From a virus, in IMG/VR virus record IMGVR_UViG_3300032307_001129, positions 1-64,000 of that record: 64,000 nt of DNA; one strand, given 5' to 3'. Made by a program: the position numbers and the translations under genes. This document shows, in pieces, positions 2,945 through 58,995 of this stretch (positions are counted from its first letter, which is position 1; each line of letters starts with the position of its first letter). Under the pieces are notes generated by a model. The model did no database searches. It saw only the letters and a program-made list of their open reading frames with translations, and was not told where the DNA came from.

Positions 2945-3898
2945 ATGGCAACTCAATTAGAAATAATAGCAGAACAACAAAGACAACAACATTTATCAAC
3001 AAATCAGTACAATTATAATCAATTGTATGATTCAAATAATTTAAATGCGTTATCTAGTAATGACGAAAAAGGTAAAGGAGAGTTGAATGGTAATATAGGT
3101 TCTAAAAAAGATATACTTGAAAGGAACTCATTATTATCTAAGAATTTATATAATAATAAGTTTTTATATGATTCTAACAATCCAAACGCAATTTCTGATG
3201 GAGATGAAAAGGGAAAAGGGGAAACAACAAAATCAATAGGTGGATTAACAGATATTAATGTTAGAAACATTCTATTAGGTAAAAACATATACACATCTAA
3301 TAATGGTTATGGTACTAATAACCCAAACGCAATATCTGATGGTGATGATAAAGGAAAAGGTGAAAATAATAATGGTAGTATTGGTTCTAATAAAGATATA
3401 CTTGAAAGAACAAAATTATTATCAAAAAATATATATAAATTTGATACTGTTTATAGTTCTAGACATCCTAATGCATTATCTAATGGTGATGAAAAAGGTA
3501 GGGGTGATGTTGATGGTTTTATTGGTACAAAAACAGATATGAATGAAAGAATAAATTTATATTCTAAAAATATATACAAACCAAATTACCCTTATAACTC
3601 TAATAATCCCAACGCAATATCTAACGGTGATGAAAAAGGTAGAGGAGAACTTGATGGTTTTATTGGTACAAAAACAGATATGAACGAAAGAGTAAATTTA
3701 TTTTCTAAAAATATATACAGACCAAATTATCCATATAATTCTAGTAATCCAAACGCGATATCTAACGGTGATGAAAAAGGTAGAGGTGAACGTAATGGTA
3801 TTGTTGGAACAAAGACAGATATTAATGAAAGAACATTATTAATTGCACGAAATAAATATAACTCTACTGAAGATTATAAGAAAAAAACTATTTTTTAA
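2945..3898 (+). CDS. Six-repeat virion-type protein
   Basis: The 317-residue product is made almost entirely of six copies of an approximately 47-residue unit. Each copy has a core of the form YxSNNPNAISxGDEKGxGE, then IGxxTDxxERxxLxxKNxY. The last three copies are the most alike, pointing to recent expansion. Similar Tyr/Gly repeat proteins occur in structural regions of T4-like phages of environmental origin (recalled, not searched). Neighbours overlap by one base (TAATG) at the 3' end. A structural role is inferred. Confidence 0.7.
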   Translation: MATQLEIIAEQQRQQHLSTNQYNYNQLYDSNNLNALSSNDEKGKGELNGNIGSKKDILERNSLLSKNLYNNKFLYDSNNPNAISDGDEKGKGETTKSIGGLTDINVRNILLGKNIYTSNNGYGTNNPNAISDGDDKGKGENNNGSIGSNKDILERTKLLSKNIYKFDTVYSSRHPNALSNGDEKGRGDVDGFIGTKTDMNERINLYSKNIYKPNYPYNSNNPNAISNGDEKGRGELDGFIGTKTDMNERVNLFSKNIYRPNYPYNSSNPNAISNGDEKGRGERNGIVGTKTDINERTLLIARNKYNSTEDYKKKTIF

Positions 3899-21407: not shown

Positions 21408-22265
21408 ATGAAACATTCAGAAGTATTAAGTAGATATGTAAATTCAGGAAAACATATACCAGAAGAACAATATGAACGTTTAACAACAGTATTAAAGAAA
21501 TCTTATCTTAGAATAAGAAGTGTTGCCGGTTTTAAAGATTGGGAATATGAATTTATAAGTGATAATCAAAGAATTAACTATATTGAAAAAAAAGGTGTAA
21601 AATTAGAAAAAGATGACGCAAAGGATTTACTTAAATATTCAATTAATAAAGACCTTATTGCAACAAAAATTATTGATGTAAAGGGTGAAAATTTGAATTA
21701 TAACGATATAAATAATTTACTTAAATATTCAGAGAATAAAGATGATATTGCTACAAAAATTATTGATGTAAAGCGTGAAAAATGGAATTATACCGATGTA
21801 GACTTTTTACTTAATTATTCAATTAATAAAGACGTTATTGCGAAAAAAATTATTGATGTAAAAGGTGAAAAATTGAATGTTTATGATATAGTAAAATTAG
21901 TTACTATTTTAAAAGATAATGAATATTATATCATACCTTTTATTTTAAAAATTATTGATGTAAAAGGTGAAAAATTGAATGATTTTGATATACACCATTT
22001 ACTTGAACACTCGGATAATAAAGATAAAATTGCAATAAAAATTATCGAATCAAAAGGTGAAAAATTAAATGATTATGATATAAACCAATTAATTAAACGT
22101 TCAGAAAATAAAGAATTAATAAAGAAAACGTTATTACAAAATGGTGTTGATTATAAATTAATAAATGATGTAATAACAAGTTATAATATAGATACCCCAT
22201 TAATACCAGACGATTACCAATCAATGTTACAAGAAATAAGAAGGATTAAAGAGATAATGATATGA
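21408..22265 (+). CDS. Tandem paralog 1: 30-residue helical repeat protein
   Basis: The 285-residue product starts with MKHSEVLSRYVNSG and LKKSYLRIRSVAG, which all three paralogs share, then has about six copies of a 30-residue unit of the form KIIDVKGEKLNxxDIxxLLxYSxNKDxIAT. The unit should form a helical solenoid. The C-terminal 50 residues (LINDVITSYNIDTPLIPDDY) are common to all three paralogs. The next gene overlaps by 4 nt (ATGA). Confidence 0.75.
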   Translation: MKHSEVLSRYVNSGKHIPEEQYERLTTVLKKSYLRIRSVAGFKDWEYEFISDNQRINYIEKKGVKLEKDDAKDLLKYSINKDLIATKIIDVKGENLNYNDINNLLKYSENKDDIATKIIDVKREKWNYTDVDFLLNYSINKDVIAKKIIDVKGEKLNVYDIVKLVTILKDNEYYIIPFILKIIDVKGEKLNDFDIHHLLEHSDNKDKIAIKIIESKGEKLNDYDINQLIKRSENKELIKKTLLQNGVDYKLINDVITSYNIDTPLIPDDYQSMLQEIRRIKEIMI

Positions 22266-22936
22266 AACATTCAGAAGTATTAAGTAGATATGTGAATACT
22301 GGACAACGAATACCAGAAAAACAATTTGACCGTTTAACACCAGTATTAAAGAAGTCTTATCTTAGAATGAGAGGGGTTGCCGTTAATTATTCTCGTTGGG
22401 AATTTAAAGTGATAAGTGATATTCAAAGAATCAATTATATTGAAAAAAAAGGTGAAAAGTTAGACCATATAGAAATAGAAGATTTACTTAAATATTCAGT
22501 TAATAAAGATGATATTGCCACAAAAATTATTGAAGCAAAAGGTGATACATTAAATAATGATGGTAACAGTTATTACTTTTTACTTGATTATTCACAAAAT
22601 AAAGACCTTATCTCAACAAAAATTATTGAAGCAAAAGGTAAAAAATTAGATAGTAACGAAATATTCTATTCACTTAAATATTCAGTTAATAAAGATGATA
22701 TTGCAACAAAAATTATTCGCACAAAAGATGAAAATTATAAAAAAATAGATATATCTTATTTACTTCAATTGTCACATAATAAAGAAATAATAAAAAAATT
22801 ATTGTTACAAAAAGGTATTGATTATAAATTAATAAATGATGTCATAACTAATGATGATATAGATATCCCATTAATACCAGACAATTACCAATCAATGTTA
22901 CAAGAAATAAGAAGGATTAAAGAGATAATGATATGA
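22262..22936 (+). CDS. Tandem paralog 2: 30-residue helical repeat protein
   Basis: The second copy has 224 residues and fewer repeats (about four) than paralog 1, while keeping the shared N-terminal MKHSEVLSRYVNTG and the shared C-terminus. Its repeats contain IATKIIEAKG instead of KIIDVKG. The gene is coupled on both sides by 4-nt overlaps. Confidence 0.75.
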   Translation: MKHSEVLSRYVNTGQRIPEKQFDRLTPVLKKSYLRMRGVAVNYSRWEFKVISDIQRINYIEKKGEKLDHIEIEDLLKYSVNKDDIATKIIEAKGDTLNNDGNSYYFLLDYSQNKDLISTKIIEAKGKKLDSNEIFYSLKYSVNKDDIATKIIRTKDENYKKIDISYLLQLSHNKEIIKKLLLQKGIDYKLINDVITNDDIDIPLIPDNYQSMLQEIRRIKEIMI

Positions 22937-23682
22937 AACATTCAGAAGTATTAAGTAGATATGTGAATACCGGTACACAAATACCAGAAAAACAATATGA
23001 CCGTTTAACACCAGTGTTAAAGAAGTCTTATCTTAGAATGAGAAGGGTTGCAGGTTATGACGGTTGGGAATTTAAATTTTTAACTGATGATGAAAGAATA
23101 AAATCTATTGAAAAAAAAGGTAAAGAATTACTTCAAAATGAAATAAATTATTTACTTTATAGTTCAAATGATAATGACCTTATTGCAACAAAAATTATTG
23201 ATGTGAAAGGTGAAAAATTGAGTCATTATGATATATATCATTTAGTTAAACGATCAAAAAGTATAGATAATATCGCAATAAAAATTATTGAAGTAAAAGG
23301 TGAAGATTTGGATTATAATGATATACATGAATTAATTCATTATTCACGTAATAAAGACCTTATTGCAACAAAAATTATTGATGTAAAAGGTGAAAAATTG
23401 TGGTCACAAGAAATAAAAATTTTACTTCAATATACTTCTGAAAACATTGAAGTAAAAATAATTCAAACAAAAGAAATTAAATTAAGTAAAATCGATATAA
23501 ATAATTTACTTACATATTCAAAAGATAAAGAATTAATAAAGAAATTATTATTACAAAAAGGTATTGATTATAAATTAATAAATGATGTAATAACAAGTTA
23601 TAATATAGATACCCCATTAATACCAGACAATTACCAATCAATGTTAAATGAGATAAAAAGGATTAAAGAGATAATGAAATAA
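22933..23682 (+). CDS. Tandem paralog 3: 30-residue helical repeat protein
   Basis: The third copy has 249 residues with about five repeats and is the last gene of the plus-strand operon. It converges on the truncated dCMP deaminase fragment, which begins 6 nt downstream on the other strand. Differences between the three copies are concentrated in the repeats, as expected if they vary by recombination. Confidence 0.75.
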   Translation: MKHSEVLSRYVNTGTQIPEKQYDRLTPVLKKSYLRMRRVAGYDGWEFKFLTDDERIKSIEKKGKELLQNEINYLLYSSNDNDLIATKIIDVKGEKLSHYDIYHLVKRSKSIDNIAIKIIEVKGEDLDYNDIHELIHYSRNKDLIATKIIDVKGEKLWSQEIKILLQYTSENIEVKIIQTKEIKLSKIDINNLLTYSKDKELIKKLLLQKGIDYKLINDVITSYNIDTPLIPDNYQSMLNEIKRIKEIMK

Positions 23683-23861: not shown

Positions 23862-24710
23862 TTAACTACGTTCAATATTCCAATTATATCCTAAATAGTT
23901 AGAATTGGATATTATTTTTCTTTTAAAAGTTGTTAATGGTATTTTAAAATAATTAGAGGCAGATTTGAAAGATTCAAAATGTAAACTTTCGTGTTGATTT
24001 TCAATATTTATCGAAACACTATCACCTAAACTTTTATTTAATGTATCAATCATTTTTTTAAATTCATTATATTTTTCCCATTTTCTTTTTAGATATATTG
24101 ATGAGTCTTTATATAAAAAATCTAAAAATTTATTTACATTCCTATTACCACAAATCCTTAAATCAAATATATTTTTTTCATCTTTATACCTTTTTGATAA
24201 GTTACATTTAATCTTTAAATTATTATAAATAAAATCACTAAAAAAATTAAAAAATTCAATTGTACAACAAATATTTATTGTAGAATTAAATGTATTTCTT
24301 GTTTTATAAAATGTAATTGATCCATCACCATCATAATATCCCCTTAAAAAATGTATTAATAGATTATTGTTTATTTTATCAAGTTTATTTGGGGTTGCGG
24401 TTAAACTTTTATTTTGATTGACTCCCAATTTTTTTAAATCATTTACTATTTTTTTTCTTGTTATTAATAATCGATATTGATTTTTAGTGTTTTTTTCTTT
24501 TCTTTTTATTAATTGTAATGGTTTATTAGTATTAATAGAAGTTTTTAATTTTTCTAAAATATCAATATCATTATACTGTAGTGTTAATGACATATAATTT
24601 CTTTTCTCATTTAAATATCCATCGGCAAAAATAATACCTAAAAAATACGATTTTTCTTCATTATCTATATCCTCAAAATATTTCTCATTAATTTCATAAA
24701 ATGGTTTCAT
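23862..24710 (-). CDS. LAGLIDADG homing endonuclease
   Basis: The 282-residue protein has two LAGLIDADG motifs, FLGIIFADGYL (23-33) and FLRGYYDGDGSI (121-132), each with the acidic catalytic residue, so it should act as a monomer with two active sites. The C-terminal 50 residues (SLHFESFKSASNYFKIPLTT and after) look like a NUMOD1-type DNA-binding element. It is free-standing, with its own start and a TATTTATA motif 4 nt before the ATG. It lies between an intact dCMP deaminase and a displaced deaminase 3' end. Confidence 0.9.
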   Translation of the reverse strand: MKPFYEINEKYFEDIDNEEKSYFLGIIFADGYLNEKRNYMSLTLQYNDIDILEKLKTSINTNKPLQLIKRKEKNTKNQYRLLITRKKIVNDLKKLGVNQNKSLTATPNKLDKINNNLLIHFLRGYYDGDGSITFYKTRNTFNSTINICCTIEFFNFFSDFIYNNLKIKCNLSKRYKDEKNIFDLRICGNRNVNKFLDFLYKDSSIYLKRKWEKYNEFKKMIDTLNKSLGDSVSINIENQHESLHFESFKSASNYFKIPLTTFKRKIISNSNYLGYNWNIERS

Positions 24711-40163: not shown

Positions 40164-40190
40164 AAACCCCACGTTTGTGGGGTTTTTAGT
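40164..40190 (-). terminator. Terminator after hsp20
   Basis: A 9-bp stem AAACCCCAC/GTGGGGTTT with a 4-nt loop and T-runs. It sits right after the Hsp20 stop and before the late motif of the next gene. Confidence 0.85.
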
Positions 40191-40555
40191 TATTCTAAAG
40201 AAATTATCCTTTCTTTACTTTTTTCTTTGGATTTAGGTAGAATAATTTCTAATATACCGTTCTTTACGTTCGCACTAATATCCTCTTCAGATATATCTTC
40301 AGGAATAAGGTACGTTTTTTTAAAGGAGTTAGTAAACGAAAATATTTCATTTTCATTTTTTTCTTTTTCATATTTAATTGTTAATAAATTTTCTTTAAGT
40401 GTAATGGATAAATCATCTTTTGTTAATCCAGGCACTTTAAGATAAATTAAATACTTGTCCTCCTTTTCAGTAAATTTTACCGAACGGTCTTTTGTTGTTT
40501 CGTTGTCAAAAAACATATCTAATACATCTTTTAACGGGTCTTTGTAAAATGTCAT
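40190..40555 (-). CDS. Small heat-shock protein (Hsp20)
   Basis: The 121-residue product has an alpha-crystallin domain: YLIYLKVPGLTKDDLSITLK, a following LLTIKYEKE strand, and the C-terminal NGILEIILPK signature. It holds unfolding proteins for refolding by Clp/Hsp70 machines. Related proteins occur in T4-like cyanophages. The frame is open from 40600, but the ATG at 40555 (MTFYKDPL) begins the conserved part and is chosen. It is divergent from the Clp unfoldase gene. Confidence 0.9.
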   Translation of the reverse strand: MTFYKDPLKDVLDMFFDNETTKDRSVKFTEKEDKYLIYLKVPGLTKDDLSITLKENLLTIKYEKEKNENEIFSFTNSFKKTYLIPEDISEEDISANVKNGILEIILPKSKEKSKERIISLE

Positions 40556-40620
40556 AATATTATATTTTTTTAATTTTATTAAACAAAACATATACCACAA
40601 AAAAAAATTGACAAAATGTC

Positions 40621-40693: not shown

Positions 40694-42706
40694 ATGTCAG
40701 TAGATTATTTTGACGAAGGTCAACAAACATCCTTTAAAAAGGTAAGGAAAGGTTCGAGGACGCCAATTCTCGATAATTTCTCAAGAGATTTAAATAAATT
40801 GGCTGAAGAAGGTAAAATCGATCCCGTCATCGGTAGAGAATCTGAAGTAAAAAGAATTGCCCAAATTATTTCAAGAAAGAAAAAAAATAACGCGGTTATT
40901 GTTGGAGATGCGGGTGTTGGTAAATCTGTGTTGGTTGAAAAATTAGCGTTATTAATTGTTAAGGGGGAATGTCCGTCAAATCTATTAGATAAAAGAATAT
41001 TATCTTTAGATTTAACTTCATTAGTTGCTGGTACTAAATATCGAGGTCAATTTGAGGAAAGAATTAAAGCGATATTAAACGAGTTACAAAACGAACCTAA
41101 TATTATTATCTTCATTGATGAACTACATACAATGGTAGGTGCTGGTAATGCTTCAGGTTCAATGGATGTTGCTAATATTCTTAAACCAGCATTGGCTCGG
41201 GGTGAAATTCAATGTATTGGTGCAACCACATTTGATGAATATAAGAAACATATTGAAAAAGATGCCGCTTTAGTTAGAAGGTTCCAAAAAATTATTTTAA
41301 AAGAACCTACTAAACCTGAGACAATTTTAATTTTGAATAACTTAAAAGAAGTATATCAAAATTATCATAAGGTTAAATATGATGAGGATGTTATTGAAAC
41401 GATTGTAAATCTATCATCACAATATATTACTGATAGACAATTTCCTGATAAGGCAATTGATATATTAGATGAATTAGGGTCTAATAAAAAAATAAATTTA
41501 AAGTCTCCTCAAATAATTGAAGATTTAAAGAAAGAATCTGAAGAGATAAAGGAAAGAAAACTACAAGTAGTAAAAACTCAAAATTATGAACAAGCGGCTA
41601 AGCTTAGGGACGATGAAAAAAAAGTTTTAGTTAAACTTGAAGATGAAAAAAGTAAGTGGTCCGAAAAACAAAAAAATAATTTAATACCTATTAATGTTGA
41701 CGATGTATATAATATAATCTCAGATGTAACAGGTATTCCAATATCTAAGTTAGATGTTAATGAAATTGAAAAATTAATAAACTTAGAAGAACGGTTATCC
41801 TCAAAAATAATTGGTCAAAGTGATGCTATTTCAATCATATCTAAATCAATTAGAAGAAATAGAGTTGGTATTAAAGAAAATAATAGACCTATTGGTTCAT
41901 TTATTTTTGTTGGTTCAACAGGTGTGGGTAAAACTTTCTTAGCTAAAACAATAGCTGAAGTTGTTTTTGGTGATCCAAACAAAATGATTCGTGTAGATAT
42001 GAGTGAATTCATGGAAAAACATAATGTTTCTCGTTTGATTGGTTCACCACCAGGATATGTTGGTCATGATGAAGGTGGTCAATTAACTGAAAAAATTAAG
42101 AATAATCCATTCTCCGTTGTTTTATTTGATGAGATAGAAAAAGCACATAAAGATGTTTATAACATTCTCCTTCAAATAATGGATGAAGGTCACCTTACAG
42201 ATTCTTTTGGTAGAAAAGTTAATTTTACAAATACTATCATTATTATGACATCTAATGTTGGTGCTAAAAAAGTGGTAGATTTTGGTAATGGTTTAGGTTT
42301 TAATACTTCATCTAGTGATACACAAAGACAGGAAGTTAAAAAATCTATTATTCAACAATCATTGAAACAACAATTTACACCTGAATTTTTAAATAGACTT
42401 GATGATATTATTCTATTTAATTCATTAAATAATGATGACATTAAAAAAATTATCACTATTGAATTAAATAAATTAAGTAATAGGATTTCAGAAAAAAATT
42501 ATATAATTTCATTCAATGAAAGTGTTCTTAATGAAATCATTAATTTAAATACAATGGAAGAATATGGTGCAAGACCTATTAAACGAATCATACAAAATTT
42601 ATGTGAAGATTTTATATCTGATGAAATTTTAAAAGGTAATATTGTAGAAAATAAATCTATAGAATTAAATTTTGAAAATGAAAAAATGAATTTTTTTGTA
42701 AAATAA
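40694..42706 (+). CDS. ClpC/ClpB-type AAA+ unfoldase without N-domain
   Basis: The 670-residue protein has two AAA+ modules. Module 1 has Walker A GDAGVGKS (71-78) and Walker B IIFIDELH (138-145); module 2 has GSTGVGKT (407-414), pore loop GYVG (454-457) and Walker B VVLFDE (475-480). Between them a UVR-like segment (about 297-312) replaces the long ClpB M-domain, as in ClpC/ClpE. The N-terminal Clp-N repeats are absent. LGF at 534-536 stands where ClpC-type unfoldases carry their ClpP-docking tripeptide, so docking to host ClpP is possible. No clpP gene lies in the window. Confidence 0.9.
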
Positions 42707-44500: not shown

Positions 44501-45187
44501 ATGTCATATTCGGAAGAAATCATCAGTGTTGTTATTTCAACAAGAAAAATCGATGATTCAAATGTACAAAAAATTAAAAAAAAGTTTTCACATCCAAGGA
44601 CTGAAATATTGGTTTATGAAAATAATAATGAATTTTCATTATCTAAATTATATAATAAAGGTTTAGAGGAATCATCAAATAATATTGTTGTTTTTATGCA
44701 CGACGATATCGATATTGAAACACCTAATGTTTCACATATTTTAAATCAATTATTTAGTAAATTTCCTGAACATGGAATTATTGGGTTAGCTGGAACTGAT
44801 GAGTTGGTTAGTGGAATGTGGTGGGAAAAAAGGGATAAGATGTATGGTAAAGTAAAACATGAACATAATGGAAAAATTCATTGTAATCATTACTCAGAAA
44901 GTTTAGGGTTTAATTTAAAAGACGTTGTTACTGTCGATGGTTTATTTTTTGCCGTTCATAAAAACAGAATAAAAGAAAAATTTGATGAGGAATTCGATGG
45001 TTTTCATTTCTATGATATTCCTTTTTGTGTTTTAAATCATTTAAAAGGTGTTAAAATTGGTGTAACAACTAAAATTATGGTGATACATAAATCAATCGGT
45101 CAAGTAAATGAACAATGGATAAATAATAAATCAAGTTTTGAAAAAAAATATGGTAAATTATTACCATTGATCGTAAAAAGTTTTTAA
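44501..45187 (+). CDS. Glycosyltransferase, GT2-like
   Basis: The 228-residue GT-A type enzyme contains IISVVISTRKIDD at the first strand, LYNKGLEESSNNIVVFMHDD with the DxD-like HDD metal site, and HGIIGLAGTDEL, WWEKRDKMYG and FDGFHFYDIPFCV at acceptor and catalytic positions. The last resembles the FHFYDxDxxL motif of small GT2 enzymes. It stands alone near the lysis-type genes. Substrate unknown. Confidence 0.75.
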   Translation: MSYSEEIISVVISTRKIDDSNVQKIKKKFSHPRTEILVYENNNEFSLSKLYNKGLEESSNNIVVFMHDDIDIETPNVSHILNQLFSKFPEHGIIGLAGTDELVSGMWWEKRDKMYGKVKHEHNGKIHCNHYSESLGFNLKDVVTVDGLFFAVHKNRIKEKFDEEFDGFHFYDIPFCVLNHLKGVKIGVTTKIMVIHKSIGQVNEQWINNKSSFEKKYGKLLPLIVKSF

Positions 45188-45495: not shown

Positions 45496-45919
45496 GGGGG
45501 TGAATTAGAATCGATTGGCGTTGGTATTGTAAGTAGGCACGTAGTCGGATTTCATCTACGACTTTAATAAATGGTGGAAAAAATTAGACGGAGACGTTTA
45601 CAAAAACATGGAAATTGTTGGTTTACTAGCAACTTCTAACGTGGAAGTAGCCTAAGGGTAAAAACACAAAACGGGTCGGTGGACATATAACCTTGGAACA
45701 GAAGTCCCTACGGTGTGATACAACCATAAAAGTGTCAAAGGTCTCGTTCAGAGGACTACCTGTAATTCCATGAAAATGGTAAAAGTGAACTCGACACAGT
45801 TTTCGGTAACAATGTCAAAATAGGAACCAAATATTTGTCAGTTGTGAATTAATTGAATAAACGTGTAGTCTATTTATGATAAAACGAACAAGACCCGGTG
45901 GCGGTGACCGGCACCTCCA
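45496..45919 (+). ncRNA. ssrA: tmRNA (SsrA RNA), phage-encoded
   Basis: The ends form a tRNA-like acceptor stem: GGGGGTG (45496-45502) with CACCTCC (45912-45918), then discriminator A45919. The third pair is G-U, the alanine identity determinant kept in tmRNAs. The 5' region AATTAGAATCGATTGG matches the usual start of tmRNAs, and GTGTAGT near the 3' end fits the P2 region. The T-stem is CCGGT/ACCGG (45895-45899 with 45907-45911). The resume codon is probably GGA at 45590 (nt 95; E. coli nt 90), preceded by TTAGAC (E. coli ATAGTC). The tag then runs 21 codons, from GDVYKN to SNVEVA, with TAA at 45653. The 3' CCA is not encoded, and the T-loop GGCGGTG is unusual. Tagging rescues stalled ribosomes. 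Confidence 0.9.
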
Positions 45920-45928
45920 CTTAAACAA

Positions 45929-45955
45929 AAAACCCACCAATTGGTGGGTTTTTTG
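45929..45955 (+). terminator. Terminator after tmRNA
   Basis: An inverted repeat AACCCACC/GGTGGGTT with a 4-nt AATT loop followed by a T-run, 10 nt past the tmRNA 3' end. Confidence 0.9.
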
Positions 45956-46074
45956 TTTTAATGTTACTTCTTAAATAAATTATTAAATAATTTGTTAAAT
46001 TCTTTTCTTAAATAAATATTTGATTAAATAAAAATATATTATTAATATATATTTATTTTTAAAAAAAGTAAAGT

Positions 46075-51953: not shown

Positions 51954-52072
51954 ATACATTAAAATTATCCGAAGAAGAAAAAAATAGAATTCTTCAAAAA
52001 CACAAAAATGCAATTAAAAAAGAAAATGTGAAAAAAGAAACATTAAATAAAGGTCTACAGAAACCAAGTTAA
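51950..52072 (+). CDS. 40-residue protein, coupled
   Basis: A short frame beginning MNTLKLSEEEKNRILQKHKN, highly charged and basic, coupled to the preceding gene by an ATGA overlap. The LSEEEKNRIL stretch resembles the SESDKTHIL leader of the gene at 49658. Its end overlaps the convergent glycosyltransferase stop by 4 nt. Confidence 0.5.
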   Translation: MNTLKLSEEEKNRILQKHKNAIKKENVKKETLNKGLQKPS

Positions 52073-53754
52073 TGTTCCTTTCTTAAACTTCCATCATAAT
52101 GGTCAAATCTATCATGTTTTATTGGTGATAATAATAAAATTGCGGTTTTAAATTTATTTTGTTTAATCATTTGAAATACATGACTCATCCATGTTTGTTC
52201 AAACGGTCTTTCCCATTTTGTTTCTAAGAATATTTTATAATTACCTTCTTTTGATACCCATAATGGCCAATTACAATAATAAATCTCACCTTCCAAATAT
52301 GTTATGTCTTGATATTGTTTCATAACATTAAATTTTGTTTTTGGTGCATCTGGATCTAACCCTTTAACTGGAAGATGTTTTTTTTCAGGAAAAAACTCTT
52401 CTCTCACATTTTGAGGTATATTATACCAAGACCATTGTGTCATATTGTTTCCAAAAAATTCAGAAAATGATAATTTAAGATAATCATATTGATTATCATA
52501 TATAATTTTTAAAGTTTTATTGTATAATTCATCTTTATATCTTTTAAAACCCATTCCACAAACATCATTTGTGTTCGGATGTAAAAACATATCATCTTCA
52601 AAAAATATATAATAGTCTGAATCACTTTCATTGAAATGTTCTGCAATCCATTGTCTTCCACCACATATTCCAATATTATCAAAATTATGAATTTCAAATC
52701 CATAATTTTTACATATGACACCATATTGTTCATCAGTTGTTCTATCTGTAGAATTATTAACTAATATTTTTCTTGTTTTATTTAAAAAATTATTATCAAC
52801 TTCTTCAAAAGATTTTAATAATGTTTCAAATTGATTTGGTGAATTATATGTTAACACATATAATGATGTTTTTATATCAGAAAAAGGTTTTAATCCTTTT
52901 GATGTCTTTTTTATTTTATTTTTTATATCTTTTAAATTTTCAAAAAATGGCCAAACTAATCCATTTCCTTCAATTTCGAAACGATGAATTAAGTCTGGAT
53001 GTCTATGACATAGAATTGTAAATAAACATTCGTCAGCCCCCATGTATCCATCATTGATTGTTGTTTCTAGTACGTTATAATATAACATATTCATTTGTGA
53101 AATTAATGATTTTTTTCCACCAAAAAATCCACCTCTAGCAACATAATCAACAAAATCAACATTACAATAACTTGCCATTTTTCCCCTTTCAAATCCATGA
53201 ATTTCGTCATTTGACGTATATGGGTAAGTTATAAAAAGAAATTTTTCATATAAGTCACAATAATAGTCTAAATTATCTAAAACTTTATCTGATGAAAAAT
53301 AATGACCATTAACTGTTGTTGTTAAACCACCATCCATCCAAAAAAAATATTCTGAATCAAAGGGGTTTGATAACATTGTATCATGAACCATAAACATTTT
53401 TGTCATCATCATGGGATTATAAAATTCTAATGCTGCTTGGGGAGATTCCGGCAACCACCCTGCAAAATTTTTCCAATCAGGATTATTTCGTATTTGTTGT
53501 ATTTTTTCGAAAAATGGGTTCCAAGTTCTAAAGTCCTCTACTTCTTTAATAAAAATTTTAGTATTGTCTTTACTTCTAACACTCCAAACATCTTCTTCTA
53601 ATTCTTTTGGTATCCACACAACCATAAAAGCATCTGCTTTTAATGTTTCAAGAAATTTTTCTTTATATGTACTAAAATCTCTTTTAGACCATCCTTCAAT
53701 TGATCCTCTTCCAAGATCCCATAAACCTGTTACTATTGTTACATTTCTATTCAT
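52069..53754 (-). CDS. Fused glycosyltransferase: HtrL/YibB-like plus GT2-like
   Basis: The 561-residue protein joins two transferase domains. Residues 1-280 resemble the HtrL/YibB family: VTIVTGLWDLGRGSIEGW at the start, PFDSEYFFWMDGGLTT with the metal-binding DG(G), and GGFFGGKKSLI, then DGYMGADECLFTILC. Residues about 285-560 are GT2-like: SLYVLTYNSPNQFETLLKSF, then KILVNNSTDRTT and SDYYIFFEDDM with the DxD-like EDD. Such fusions often add two sugars in turn. It is the last gene of the cluster's minus-strand transcript. Confidence 0.8.
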   Translation of the reverse strand: MNRNVTIVTGLWDLGRGSIEGWSKRDFSTYKEKFLETLKADAFMVVWIPKELEEDVWSVRSKDNTKIFIKEVEDFRTWNPFFEKIQQIRNNPDWKNFAGWLPESPQAALEFYNPMMMTKMFMVHDTMLSNPFDSEYFFWMDGGLTTTVNGHYFSSDKVLDNLDYYCDLYEKFLFITYPYTSNDEIHGFERGKMASYCNVDFVDYVARGGFFGGKKSLISQMNMLYYNVLETTINDGYMGADECLFTILCHRHPDLIHRFEIEGNGLVWPFFENLKDIKNKIKKTSKGLKPFSDIKTSLYVLTYNSPNQFETLLKSFEEVDNNFLNKTRKILVNNSTDRTTDEQYGVICKNYGFEIHNFDNIGICGGRQWIAEHFNESDSDYYIFFEDDMFLHPNTNDVCGMGFKRYKDELYNKTLKIIYDNQYDYLKLSFSEFFGNNMTQWSWYNIPQNVREEFFPEKKHLPVKGLDPDAPKTKFNVMKQYQDITYLEGEIYYCNWPLWVSKEGNYKIFLETKWERPFEQTWMSHVFQMIKQNKFKTAILLLSPIKHDRFDHYDGSLRKEH

Positions 53755-53813
53755 ATTTTTTTTATTATAATCAAAAATTATATATTTTTTTACATCAGCA
53801 ATAAATTATTATA

Positions 53814-54851
53814 TTAAGGTTTAAAATTTAAATAACCACCTTCATGTATCCCTATTTTGTAAATTTTGTCCAAGTTATCGGACTTAACATATTCAATAAA
53901 AAAAAATTTTCTCTGACCTGGTGCAGGATCTATTAAAGAATTATTTGTACAATAAAATTCAAATTTTTCATGATTTTGTTTAATTAATTCATTTTCTATT
54001 TGATATGTTATATCTGTAGTTAGATTACAGATATATTCGTCAGGATAACCTTCATCTATAATAAATGGTGCAGTACCATATTTAACAGATTTTAAAATTA
54101 TTTTATCATTCGATTCATATTTTACTTTTTTATACCATTCTTCTTCTAAAAAAGTAAAATATGGGTTAACGTTAAAGTTATACCATTGAAAAAATTTTTT
54201 TTCACCTTCTACGTAGTCATTTAACCATGCCTCATATGACCATCTACCCCAATATCCAACGGGTATACATCTTTTAATATACGAAGATTTTGACCACCAA
54301 AAATTACCCCAATACCAACCACCATTATTTGTTACACCAACACAATCATTATCTTTTAATTTTTCCAAAGAATCTTCCCATTTATCTATTAAAAAATATT
54401 CTAAACATTCACGCCATCCTTTTATATTTTTAATTTTTTCTTCACATATAATTAGCGATTCTGATTTAGGATTTTCATATATATTACTTACCCCTTTAGT
54501 ATGGAAATATAGGATATTAGCGTCTTCATAAATTTCACTAATTTCTTTTACTTTATTAATTCCAGGATATTCCGAACTATTATTTGTGTTAAACACTATT
54601 TTTAATTTCATATAATCTTTAACTAAATCTATAAATTCCTCTTCTGAATTATCTAATTTAGTTACCATAACCCAAAATTCGTCACATTTTTCATATAATC
54701 CTGAATCTTTAACTCTATTTAATTGTTCAATCACTAATTGTTTCCAATGATTAACTAAAAAACAATAATAAACAATTATAGTTTTATTATTGTTCTCATC
54801 AAATTTATCATTTGATTCATTGTTGTCTGATAAATTTATTTCTTTTTTCAT
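53814..54851 (-). CDS. Glycosyltransferase-like protein
   Basis: The 345-residue protein resembles the GT-A-like enzymes that contain NILYFHTKGVSN; this block and CVGVTNNGGWYWGNFWWSKS correspond to the donor and acceptor regions of phage glycosyltransferases of unknown specificity. It is Trp/Tyr-rich and has a charged N-terminal extension of about 20 residues. The next gene overlaps by 4 nt. The family assignment is moderate. Confidence 0.6.
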   Translation of the reverse strand: MKKEINLSDNNESNDKFDENNNKTIIVYYCFLVNHWKQLVIEQLNRVKDSGLYEKCDEFWVMVTKLDNSEEEFIDLVKDYMKLKIVFNTNNSSEYPGINKVKEISEIYEDANILYFHTKGVSNIYENPKSESLIICEEKIKNIKGWRECLEYFLIDKWEDSLEKLKDNDCVGVTNNGGWYWGNFWWSKSSYIKRCIPVGYWGRWSYEAWLNDYVEGEKKFFQWYNFNVNPYFTFLEEEWYKKVKYESNDKIILKSVKYGTAPFIIDEGYPDEYICNLTTDITYQIENELIKQNHEKFEFYCTNNSLIDPAPGQRKFFFIEYVKSDNLDKIYKIGIHEGGYLNFKP

Positions 54852-55636
54852 ACGTGATATTTAATTATTTCTTTTAATATTGTAATATTTGATTTTGTGT
54901 TATGTACTAATTTAACTTTTGGTATATTTTGATATATATGTTCATCTTCTTTAAAATTACCCAAAAACCAATCATTTTCAATAGATTCTGGATGTGCTGT
55001 TGAATGTAATCTTTTATGACTTATATTGTTTTCAAAAATAAATTTTAATAAAAATAATTCTTCAGGGTATCTACTATAAAAATGGTGATCAGGATGATAT
55101 GTGTCGCTCACATAAAAATTATGTTGTTGTTCAGTAAATTCTGTTAATTGTTTCATTAATTCTGTCTTCCCACCAAAAAAATTACCCATAGTCCAATATT
55201 CATCAGTTGAATTAAAATTTAATGGTACTCTATCTGTCACATCATTATGAACACCTTTTAAAGACGCATAAAAATAATGATGAAGTAAATAAAAATCATT
55301 ATCTAAAAAATCTTCATTTATTGGGTTAACATATATTTGGTCTGTATCATGTACAAAAATATAATCATAACTATCATTAATATATTTCAAAGATAATATT
55401 TTCATGAGGCACATGTGCCAAAATCCATTAACATTATGGTCTATATATATGTTTTTAACATTTTCAAGTTCAATATTTTTATCATTTGTAATAAAAATGA
55501 AATCAACATTCGAATCTTTAAAAAAATATTTTTTTGCACTATCATATAAACAATCCAAAATAAATTTATTATCATCATGTATTCCTGAATGACCATTAAA
55601 CGAATACCAACCAGAAATGAACGCTATTTTTTTCAT
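54848..55636 (-). CDS. Glycosyltransferase, GT6-like
   Basis: The 262-residue protein has DYIFVHDTDQIYVN, where HDTD is the metal-binding motif, and YWTMGNFFGGKTELMKQL, the FFGG loop typical of GT6 enzymes such as the ABO-type transferases. Later YHPDHHFYSRYPEELFLLKF and RLHSTAHPES continue the fold. Bacteriophage and bacterial GT6 enzymes transfer Gal or GalNAc; here the donor is unknown. It overlaps both neighbours by 4 nt. Confidence 0.7.
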   Translation of the reverse strand: MKKIAFISGWYSFNGHSGIHDDNKFILDCLYDSAKKYFFKDSNVDFIFITNDKNIELENVKNIYIDHNVNGFWHMCLMKILSLKYINDSYDYIFVHDTDQIYVNPINEDFLDNDFYLLHHYFYASLKGVHNDVTDRVPLNFNSTDEYWTMGNFFGGKTELMKQLTEFTEQQHNFYVSDTYHPDHHFYSRYPEELFLLKFIFENNISHKRLHSTAHPESIENDWFLGNFKEDEHIYQNIPKVKLVHNTKSNITILKEIIKYHV

Positions 55637-56349
55637 ACTTTTTTAAACATTTTTTTAATTGAATCATCATATATTTCATATGGTTTACCACCATGATTCA
55701 TATGATTTTGAAATTGATGAAGTCTAAATTTGTGATTTTTAGATTCAAAATCTACATTATTATGGTATTCTTCAATACCTTCAGGTCCTGTATGTATATT
55801 TATATTTACTAATCTATCTAAAAAAATTTTACCCCTTATAATTGATTTTCCACATGTACCGTGACCATTTTCAAATCTTTCTTCTGTTGACCATCTATGA
55901 AAATCTTGTTCATTTATTGATTTATCATAATCAAAAGGAGGTCTAAAATTATACATTGGAAGATAAATCATATTATCTTTTAACTCGGATAACATTTTTT
56001 TTAAATTATATTCATCTAAATTTATTGGAACAATCCATTCATCAACATCAAAAATAGCTATCCAATCATATTCACTTTTTAAACTATTAAATCCATTTTT
56101 AAATGATTCTCTTTGTCTTTCTGTGGCTAAAGAACAATTATTTCCTTGATAATCCCCGATTGGTTTAGTGTTTAAATATTCTATATTATATTCTTTTTTT
56201 AATTCCTCTAAAACATCTTCGGTATTATCTTCTGGTTGATCTAAATAAAATAAAAATTTATCAACATCATAAAAATCATAATGAAATTTAACCCATTCTT
56301 TTAATCTTTTTGATTCATTTCTAATTTGAGTTATAATAGATAAGGTCAT
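55633..56349 (-). CDS. Glycosyltransferase, GT2/GT92-like
   Basis: The 238-residue protein starts TLSIITQIRNESKRLKEW, then VKFHYDFYDVDKFLFYLD, and has YDWIAIFDVDEWIVPI with the DxD-type FDVDE, all typical of the GT92/GT2_4-like group. It is coupled by 4 nt to the GT6-like gene and 1 nt from the fused transferase-methyltransferase. Substrate unknown. Confidence 0.8.
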   Translation of the reverse strand: MTLSIITQIRNESKRLKEWVKFHYDFYDVDKFLFYLDQPEDNTEDVLEELKKEYNIEYLNTKPIGDYQGNNCSLATERQRESFKNGFNSLKSEYDWIAIFDVDEWIVPINLDEYNLKKMLSELKDNMIYLPMYNFRPPFDYDKSINEQDFHRWSTEERFENGHGTCGKSIIRGKIFLDRLVNINIHTGPEGIEEYHNNVDFESKNHKFRLHQFQNHMNHGGKPYEIYDDSIKKMFKKV

Positions 56350-56350
56350 A

Positions 56351-57622
56351 TTATTTTTTTTTAATTATTGAAGTTATACTATTCCCATTATTTAAATAAT
56401 ATATTTCACAAAATTCTATATTTTCTGATAGATATTTTTCTTGTTCTTCATTTAAATAATCACTTTTTATTTTATTTTTTATATTAAAATATTCCAACAT
56501 TTTCAATGTTGTTGTTTTTGTCGGATCACCCCATTGAAATATAGATTTTTCAGGCATTAAACATTCAACACTTGTATGTAAATCCTCTATTATATAAATT
56601 CCACCTGATTTTAACATTTTAAAAAGTATGGCGAATGTAATTTGTTGGTCATACATTTTATGTGACCCATCATCCAAAATAATATCGACATTTTCTATTT
56701 TATTTAAAAAATCATACAATTCTTCAGAATTAGATTGGTCACATTTAATAACTTCAATATCATCATCAACAATATCTTCTTTTAAATCGACACCATATAT
56801 TTTAGCATTAGAAAAAAATCTTTTAAAAACTTTTAATGAATTTCCGTCTAATGTACCAATTTCAACTAATTTTTTTACTTCATTTTTTATTGGGAAAAAC
56901 ACATCTTGGTATACTTGATTAAAATAATTATGTAAATAATGTTTATCTGTTGGATAAATTTCACCTAAGTCCATTAAACTATTAGTATCAACAATTGGTT
57001 CAATATTTAATAGTTTATAATACATTGCATCAATTGTTCTATTTCTCAAATTACCATATGAAAATGCGTGGAATATAAATTCATTACCATTGTGTGTTGA
57101 TGCATTTAATTCATGATTTTCTATTATAGAAAATTTTTCTTTTTTTTCTAATGTTTGATATAATAACCCTATACAAGTTTGGTCATGCCATAAACCCGTT
57201 TTATATTGAGGATATTCTTCACCTATTAACCACCAATCTTCTAAAAATTTTTTACTAAATTCGTCATTTTTTACAATCATGACACCAGCATTTACTAATG
57301 ATGGTCCATAATCTTTAGTCATTATAATACTAACATTTTCTTCAATAAAGTCTTCTATTTTTTTATTATTGTTTGTTATTATTGCATCCATATCTAAAAA
57401 CAACACATAATCACAATCAGGATTATCAAGTAAAATTGATTTTATTAAATGAGGTTTGTACCAAGTAATTGATCTACCTTCTAATTTTTCGATTATTTTT
57501 TTCGTGTCAGATTCGACATAATATTCATATCCATTTTCATTACAATATTTTTTATTTATTTCTATTGTAAATTTAGCATATGGAACATTATTTGTATAAA
57601 ATTGTGTAACAATTATTTTCAT
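56351..57622 (-). CDS. Fused glycosyltransferase and SAM methyltransferase
   Basis: Residues 1-215 of the 423-residue protein form a GT34-like transferase: NPDCDYVLFLDMDAIITNN with the DxD motif, SLVNAGVMIVKNDEFSKKFL and WHDQTCIGLLYQ. Residues about 220-423 are a class I methyltransferase of the CmcI-type: LVEIGTLDGNSLKVFKRFF (motif I GTLDG), IYGVDLKEDI, and NVDIILDDGSHKMYDQQ. The order suggests that a sugar is added and then methylated. A (TTTA)n stretch of about 24 bp precedes the ATG. Confidence 0.8.
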   Translation of the reverse strand: MKIIVTQFYTNNVPYAKFTIEINKKYCNENGYEYYVESDTKKIIEKLEGRSITWYKPHLIKSILLDNPDCDYVLFLDMDAIITNNNKKIEDFIEENVSIIMTKDYGPSLVNAGVMIVKNDEFSKKFLEDWWLIGEEYPQYKTGLWHDQTCIGLLYQTLEKKEKFSIIENHELNASTHNGNEFIFHAFSYGNLRNRTIDAMYYKLLNIEPIVDTNSLMDLGEIYPTDKHYLHNYFNQVYQDVFFPIKNEVKKLVEIGTLDGNSLKVFKRFFSNAKIYGVDLKEDIVDDDIEVIKCDQSNSEELYDFLNKIENVDIILDDGSHKMYDQQITFAILFKMLKSGGIYIIEDLHTSVECLMPEKSIFQWGDPTKTTTLKMLEYFNIKNKIKSDYLNEEQEKYLSENIEFCEIYYLNNGNSITSIIKKK

Positions 57623-57655
57623 GTATTTTATTTATTTATTTATTTATTTATATTA

Positions 57656-58915
57656 TTAATATAAAATCCCTTCGATTTTTTCACACCATCCTTTTGATGA
57701 GGAATATGGCCATACAATCCATTTTTTCGGTGTTTTTTCGGTATTGAATGTTCTCCATACTTTATAGTAATTATCTCCGAAATCTAATTTAATACTGTTT
57801 AATTCGTTAACATCGGCATCTTGTCTATACATAGTTTCACCTATTTCGTTTTCAAATGCTACGACCCAAAATTCATAATCTGTTTCAGGTACTTGATGTG
57901 GATATATATCTATACAGTGTTTAAATATTGTTAAAAAAGAATTTGAAAATTCTTCACCATATAATGGAATGTTTGGTGGGTATTTATGGTCTAACGTATC
58001 TTGTTGCACACCTCTTTTTTTAAAAGATATTCCTGAGTATCTTTCGTAATCTTCCAATGTTCTTTCTTTTCCAAAACCATAAAACCCGAAATCAATGTCA
58101 TTTATCTCACCATCCATTTCAAATAATTTTCTATTTCTTTTGTGACATTCGATATTCCTTAAATGCCAAGATTTATCGTCATCCCATTGTTTAGCCCTAC
58201 CTTTTCTAGTGTACTCGTGCCAAGCAATTACTTTATGTGGATGAAATAAATCGTATCCATGTGTATATGCCCTAACCGCAATTGAAATCTCCTCACCATG
58301 AAAATAATAATTTGGGTCATGAGGAACATCTTTTACAAATGAACCTAATGTAAAACAAAAATGTGCAGAATAAAATCTTGATGGAACAGGTTCGGTTCTA
58401 TCTTTATAATCATCTATTGATGCTGGTAAAAAGAAAATAGCCCCTTCAGGAATAAACCTATCAAAAGTCATTTTCCAAGGTGTCTCAACTCTACCTTCAG
58501 GGTCATTATCCGGATCAAAAGAAGATATATAAGACGTTAATAATGGTTTTACGTGACCTTTTTCTTGTAATTGTTTAATCATTGAGATACATTCCACATC
58601 CCAATCTTGGACAAATCTATGATGTGAATCTAATTGAAGAGTATATTCTTCATTATCATAAAGTTGTTGTAACATATGTCTTGCCCAACATGCACCTTTT
58701 GATATTTTATAACTAACATCTATAATTTTAAATCTATCGTCATTTTTGTATTCATCTAAATTATCCCAAACATCTTCATTAGAACGTTGCAATGTTATCC
58801 CAAAAACCAAATTTTCGGGATGTTTCGCTTTTTCGATACAATCTTTTATGGTTGGTTTTAATTGTGGGTCACGATATGATGCTATTTGAATAAAAATCTT
58901 ACCATTTTCTAACAT
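57656..58915 (-). CDS. GT60-like (GlcNAc-transferase family) glycosyltransferase
   Basis: Started at the ATG at 58915 (MLENGKIFIQIASYRDPQLK), the 419-residue protein matches the Glycosyltransferase (GlcNAc) family of Skp1-type GT60 enzymes: IFIQIASYRDP, TLQLDSHHRFVQDWDVECIS with DxH metal binding (96-98) and RFYSAHFCFTLGSFVKDVPH, then YYFHGEEISIAVRAYTHGYD. Known members transfer GlcNAc to hydroxyproline or Ser/Thr of proteins. This hints that the phage's target could be a protein side chain. The frame is open 23 codons further upstream, but the conserved part begins at 58915. Confidence 0.8.
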   Translation of the reverse strand: MLENGKIFIQIASYRDPQLKPTIKDCIEKAKHPENLVFGITLQRSNEDVWDNLDEYKNDDRFKIIDVSYKISKGACWARHMLQQLYDNEEYTLQLDSHHRFVQDWDVECISMIKQLQEKGHVKPLLTSYISSFDPDNDPEGRVETPWKMTFDRFIPEGAIFFLPASIDDYKDRTEPVPSRFYSAHFCFTLGSFVKDVPHDPNYYFHGEEISIAVRAYTHGYDLFHPHKVIAWHEYTRKGRAKQWDDDKSWHLRNIECHKRNRKLFEMDGEINDIDFGFYGFGKERTLEDYERYSGISFKKRGVQQDTLDHKYPPNIPLYGEEFSNSFLTIFKHCIDIYPHQVPETDYEFWVVAFENEIGETMYRQDADVNELNSIKLDFGDNYYKVWRTFNTEKTPKKWIVWPYSSSKGWCEKIEGILY

Positions 58916-58995
58916 AAATTTTTTTTTAAAAAATAAACTTTTATTTATAAATAGTAAACTTTTAATTTTTTTATTATCTTGCAAAAAAATTGATT

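Follow-up and report, generated by a model that had tools for sequence, protein, structure and literature searches.

Can a phage-encoded tmRNA whose T-loop departs from the TTCRA type be functional, and how might such a loop have arisen? These questions are raised by positions 45496-45919 of the window, the 64,000-nucleotide stretch of a 66.4-kb IMG/VR virus contig that was analysed here. The original prediction, made from the sequence by itself, had described this locus as a complete phage tmRNA with an unusually long tag and a non-canonical T-loop. We consider, with a probability of about 0.82, that it is a functional one-piece tmRNA encoded by a phage, and that its elbow type was changed by a coupled substitution in the D-loop and T-loop.

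A one-piece tmRNA gene and its phage relatives

All of the parts named in the original prediction are present in the sequence (Table 1), and the covariance model RF00023 matches the locus from end to end (45496-45922, model positions 1-374) at 49.0 bits (E 2.3e-18; gathering score 47), a match that was repeated when a 4.2-kb stretch was scanned. The predicted 7-bp acceptor ends with a G-U pair at position 3 were confirmed and are followed by a discriminator A, the next bases are CTT, CCA being, as anticipated, not encoded, and a terminator-like hairpin with a T run does lie downstream. The score is barely above the cut-off, and the gene was not reported by a default whole-window cmscan, by ARAGORN, which had been proposed as a check, or by a search of the genome record; these three automatic searches without a match show that the RF00023 score is marginal for automatic detection. 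The tmRNA of one relative, L002, scores below the cut-off, at 40 bits.

Table 1. Features of the tmRNA locus and of neighbouring genes in the window
Feature	Position	Strand	Basis
ClpC-type AAA+ unfoldase without N-terminal Clp_N, with UVR motif and LGF sequence	40694..42706	+	Pfam AAA_2, AAA_lid_9, ClpB_D2-small, UVR
Glycosyltransferase-like gene directly upstream of the tmRNA, syntenic in relatives	44501..45187	+	PF13712, 1.1e-26; L002-L007
One-piece tmRNA, mature RNA without post-transcriptionally added CCA	45496..45919	+	RF00023, homologs L002-L007 and others, consensus fold
Acceptor stem, 5' strand GGGGGTG	45496..45502	+	7/7 pairs with 45912-45918
D-loop AATTAGAATCGAT, AG at 45507-45508 replacing canonical GG	45503..45515	+	alignment with relatives, D-loop/T-loop association
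Tag reading frame GDVYKNMEIVGLLATSNVEVA, resume codon GGA, stop TAA at 45653-45655	45590..45655	+	only frame open across all relatives
T-arm, stem CCGGT/ACCGG, loop GGCGGTG (45900-45906)	45895..45911	+	compensatory stem changes in L002, L003, L014, L240
Acceptor stem, 3' strand CACCTCC (45912-45918), and discriminator A (45919)	45912..45919	+	sequence
Intrinsic-terminator-like (rho-independent-type) hairpin, then T run	about 45926..45958	+	sequence

A homologous tmRNA next to the same glycosyltransferase gene occurs in at least six related phages from metagenomes. This gene has six relatives in IMG/VR (L002-L007), and a tmRNA stands right behind it in 6/6, with RF00023 scores of 40 to 111 bits. 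Searching with a DNA pattern for the 3' domain gave 22 stretches, to which a D-loop pattern search added L240 and L241, and the tmRNA bodies in this family are 67-95% identical to that of the window. In a collection of 50,697 isolate-phage records, nucleotide queries with the window tmRNA and with a canonical family member found no family homolog. The consensus fold of 17 family members contains 65 pairs, 26 of which have changed on both sides among Watson-Crick types, and the fifth acceptor pair covaries between G-C and A-T among the relatives.

The portal, major head, head protease and terminase genes of the record match PHROG head and packaging families, and the best full-length isolate matches of the terminase are Flavobacterium phages, at 27% identity. 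Elsewhere in the window we noted clustered genes that, from sequence only, look glycosyltransferase-like or otherwise related to sugars (52069-58984), three paralogous proteins encoded in tandem, in which the motif KIIDVKGEKL recurs (21408-23682), and, by eye, a putative LAGLIDADG-type homing endonuclease (23862-24710, minus strand). In the canonical-elbow relatives L005-L007 the tmRNA is preceded, at a distance of about 2.5 kb, by a GOLLD RNA (RF02032, 309-322 bits; at about 3100-3700); cmscan found none in the window. Two other relatives carry CTA-anticodon tRNAs (L017:1220-1292 and L028:7266-7340) that ARAGORN labels tRNA-Pyl and that are probably amber suppressors, and UAG recoding is possible there.

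The view in the original prediction that phage tmRNAs are rare does not hold: they have been reported in 402 of 18,146 phage genomes, about 2% (PMC9004378), 79 of the 97,179 sequences in a 2025 tmRNA database are unique phage sequences (PMC11915505), and in huge phages a tmRNA occurs together with SmpB (PMC7162821). The window tmRNA resembles bacterial one-piece tmRNA (ssrA, RF00023), including that of mycobacteriophage Bxz1 and of Bacillus phage G, in the form of the gene, in the G-U pair of the acceptor, in having a resume codon with a tag frame, and in its 3' domain, whereas it differs in its GGCRG T-loop, its AG D-loop and a 21-residue tag ending in VEVA.

Coupled change of the D-loop and T-loop

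The window retains the 5-bp T-stem of the canonical elbow, with covariation, and carries GGCGGTG in place of a TTCRA-type loop. Compared with TTCRA this loop is indeed odd, as the original prediction stated; it is not, however, an isolated oddity, since GGCRG also occurs in permuted alphaproteobacterial tmRNAs and in some Patescibacteria. Within the phage family, the window, L002 and L003 have GGCRGTG loops on the stems CCGGT/ACCGG, CTGGT/ACCAG and CTGGC/GCCAG, and a second GGCRG lineage has the loop GGCRGA(G/A), as in L014 (TAGGA-GGCAGAG-TCCTA) and L240/L241 (CAGGA-GGCGGAA-TCCTG). Because the T-stems of the GGCRG members remain fully paired through compensatory changes in five sequences, the T-arm is under selection. 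A sequencing error in the loop was rejected, because L002, L003, L014 and L240 have the same loop type with covarying stems. The remaining relatives, which are the majority, have normal TTCRA T-loops, barring two that are interrupted by introns and one group with a 6-base loop; the tmRNAs of L011, L022 and L029 have a T-loop that is one base short (CGGGT-TTCGAT-ACCCG).

A matching change in the D-loop had gone unnoticed in the original prediction: the AG of the D-loop accompanies the GGCRG of the T-loop, and the window has both. The D-loop of canonical relatives reads (T/A)GG-NN-T(C/T)GA, and that of all GGCRG members reads TAG-NN-T(C/T)GA, preceded by one or two extra bases. The changed base corresponds to G13 in E. 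coli numbering, that is, to tRNA position 18. The window retains G19 (E. coli numbering), a residue that packs against SmpB (PMC8363625). SmpB binding has been reported to require contacts of the D-loop with the T-loop (PMC3968760).

How general is this association? When genomes were scanned for GGCRG T-arms, 89 stretches were returned, mostly from Alphaproteobacteria, Saccharibacteria and Gracilibacteria, among which are many permuted tmRNAs with ANDN-type tags and, in Patescibacteria, one-piece forms. In the pattern-chosen set, the D-loop base was A in 107/107 GGCRG tmRNAs and G in 10/10 TTCRA members of the phage family. Since this first set had been picked by its T-loop, a second sample was drawn by covariance model only; it covers loci with a confidently placed T-arm from three phyla, reached via Saccharibacteria, Chlorobiaceae and Anaerolineae genomes. 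Here U55 occurred with a D-loop G in all 58 cases and G55 with a non-G in all 11 (Fisher p 5.5e-13, uncorrected for ancestry). The G55 loops were TGCRA (8), GGCRG (2) and AGCRT (1), and all came from Patescibacteria; the association therefore partly reflects shared ancestry. Eight of the patescibacterial tmRNAs (L256, L257, L258, L262, L267, L269, L274 and L275) combine TGCRA T-loops with a D-loop without GG, possibly an intermediate elbow, and the T-loop of L277 is AGCAT. Positions 54 and 58 of the loop likewise covary (U-A, G-G or A-U), the pair in the window having gone from U-A to G-G.

The simplest reading of this coupling is that A13-G55 would take the place of G13-U55, giving an alternative elbow. 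Permuted alphaproteobacterial tmRNAs and Patescibacteria share this elbow, and the GGCRG loop of Alphaproteobacteria, which appears in our data, is probably already familiar to specialists; the addition made here is that D-loop and T-loop switch together within a single phage family. Neither a published D-loop/T-loop rule nor a coupled elbow switch was found in the literature searched, a body that older key papers (Keiler 2000, Sharkady 2004) lie outside.

Two groups of tmRNA share the elbow of the window and differ from it otherwise. The permuted, two-piece tmRNAs (RF01849, RF04321) found in Alphaproteobacteria and marine phages have the same GGCRGNG T-loop and AG D-loop, whereas the window gene is not permuted, its 5' acceptor strand preceding the 3' end by 423 bases, and its body groups with a one-piece family that has canonical relatives; a permuted tmRNA was accordingly rejected on gene order and on the RF04321 score (14.5 bits, cut-off 47). 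Patescibacteria (Saccharibacteria and Gracilibacteria) have one-piece tmRNAs with a GGCRG or TGCRA T-loop and an AG D-loop, as in the window, and no similarity to the window in body or tag was detected beyond the tRNA-like end.

Tag frame, decay, recombination and the origin of the elbow

The predicted tag of the window is GDVYKNMEIVGLLATSNVEVA, 21 residues long (45590-45652), and peptides carrying it would be expected to end in VGLLATSNVEVA. The frame, which the original prediction had aligned by eye, has now been settled by comparison. In 12 distinct sequences, over 18 codons and counting single-base codon differences, frame 0 contains no stops and shows 19 synonymous to 12 nonsynonymous differences, its variable columns falling 7, 2 and 11 times at codon positions 1, 2 and 3; it is also the frame of the tags GNVYNNMEVAGLLATSKVAA or GNVYNNMEVSGLLATSKVAA that ARAGORN assigns in those relatives that it recognises. 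This pattern indicates that the tag frame is under purifying selection. If the tag were instead read in a different frame, such as +1 (ETFTKTWKLLVY), it would end at a TAG in the P5 loop, a common site for tmRNA stops, and the +1 reading of L026 by chance terminates in KLAA; yet the +1 readings do not share a conserved end, stops fall within the first 18 codons in 8/12 sequences in frame 1 and 12/12 in frame 2, and the synonymous to nonsynonymous counts are 7:25 and 3:32, so the alternative frames were rejected on stop counts and substitution ratios and we hold them to be highly improbable. The end of the frame 0 tag differs from what is usual: sampled Bacteroidota tags have 9-10 residues and end in LAA or MAA, and the departure of EVA from the typical LAA signal counts against our preferred explanation. 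In the alignment, VEVA derives from the family end NVAVA by one Ala to Glu change.

Might the gene instead be a decayed or decoy tmRNA, which has lost its T-loop and performs no trans-translation, or which titrates SmpB like the TLD-only phage RNA of DS6A, reported to be inhibitory (PMC4131195)? The absence of TTCRA and the marginal RF00023 score would fit such a fate. Decay would not, however, be expected to preserve T-stem pairing by compensatory changes in five sequences, to alter the D-loop in concert with the T-loop or to leave the tag frame open and under purifying selection in all relatives, and the same T-loop is standard in cellular tmRNAs; we therefore regard this explanation as distinctly unlikely. 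Granted a functional tmRNA, its elbow could have been gained by recombination with a permuted tmRNA of the alphaproteobacterial type and not by local substitution. Permuted GGCRG tmRNAs are common in phages, and the T-arm differs from that of L004 at most positions while its flanks are identical. Against this, the D-loop and T-arm are separated by about 380 bases of conserved family sequence, so that recombination would require two short exchanges, and the TGCRA loops with a D-loop A in Patescibacteria show that a stepwise path exists. Recombination is a possibility to be taken seriously, even if we think local substitution the likelier route.

For the functional tmRNA with a substituted elbow that we prefer, the direction of change is suggested by a family tree built without the D-loop and T-arm columns. 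In this tree, the GGCRG sequences are nested inside the TTCRA family at two places, a single origin is not rejected (AU p 0.106), and the topology indicates that the GGCRG elbow arose inside a canonical phage family by one or two switches. tmRNAs with a group I intron in the T-loop have been described before (PMC11915505), and L018 and L028 add phage cases, in which RF00028 introns (68 bits; L018:1787-2006 and L028:1689-1903 (-)) interrupt the T-loop after GGGTT and ARAGORN makes no tmRNA call. The window tmRNA, in contrast, is intron-free, and the intron target sequence is absent from its T-loop. We speculate, with considerable doubt, that tmRNA elbows are of two interchangeable types (G13/U55 and A13/G55) that switch as a unit, and that phages switch in order to avoid some agent that targets the canonical T-loop. 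Within that doubtful reading, what they evade might tentatively be the homing of group I introns, such as those that close relatives contain, a modification of the T-loop, or recognition of TTCRA by a host defence or by a competing rescue system.

Host, mode of action and significance

What would such a tmRNA do in its host? The phage is large and probably infects Bacteroidota. Its ClpC-type protein is up to 54% identical to Bacteroidota ClpC-like proteins and up to 50% to those of Patescibacteria, with partial matches only in Pseudomonadota; because it is closest to Bacteroidota ClpC, the host is likely a bacteroidote and, given that the canonical elbow is present in 30/30 sampled Bacteroidota, likely one whose own tmRNA has that elbow. 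After infection, the phage tmRNA would be processed and receive CCA from a host enzyme. By analogy, it would be charged with alanine through the G3-U pair, bind SmpB at the elbow, and enter and rescue stalled ribosomes by trans-translation, adding the 21-residue tag. In the exact contacts that we envisage, the coupled substitution would keep the T-loop fold and the D-loop/T-loop contact instead of losing them.

No SmpB was found in the 66-kb window record, which may be a fragment, or in a 168-kb relative; the host SmpB would then have to accept the altered elbow. SmpB is encoded in the same contig as the tmRNA in L004 and L028, and the L004 protein matches SmpB structures. These phage-encoded copies are L239 (L004:644-1072, about 5 kb upstream of the tmRNA on the same strand) and L238. 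The ClpC-type gene is conserved in L002 and is a possible partner in tag-directed proteolysis. An Hsp20-type small heat shock protein (40190-40600, minus strand) adjoins it in the window, and the pair is also found in L002. The presence of SmpB in some phages of the family and of the ClpC-type unfoldase in the window clade suggests phage-controlled tagging and degradation.

ARAGORN, run on their loci, called none of the one-piece GGCRG tmRNAs checked as one-piece (the window, L002, L003, L014, L031, L041, L055, L109, L121, L136, L163, L169, L191, L193, L197, L198, L200, L204, L210, L217, L221, L226 and L276), and did call many permuted GGCRG and one-piece TGCRA tmRNAs. The T-loop is not the sole reason for the missed calls, since the canonical family members L016, L017 and L027 were missed too. 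Because ARAGORN is used in phage and metagenome annotation, one-piece GGCRG genes are under-counted.

The phage family described here amounts to a natural double mutant: closely related phage tmRNAs with bodies about 80% identical differ in elbow type, their D-loop and T-loop having changed together. The long-inferred contact between the D-loop and T-loop of tmRNA therefore becomes directly testable, with the pairing residues predicted.
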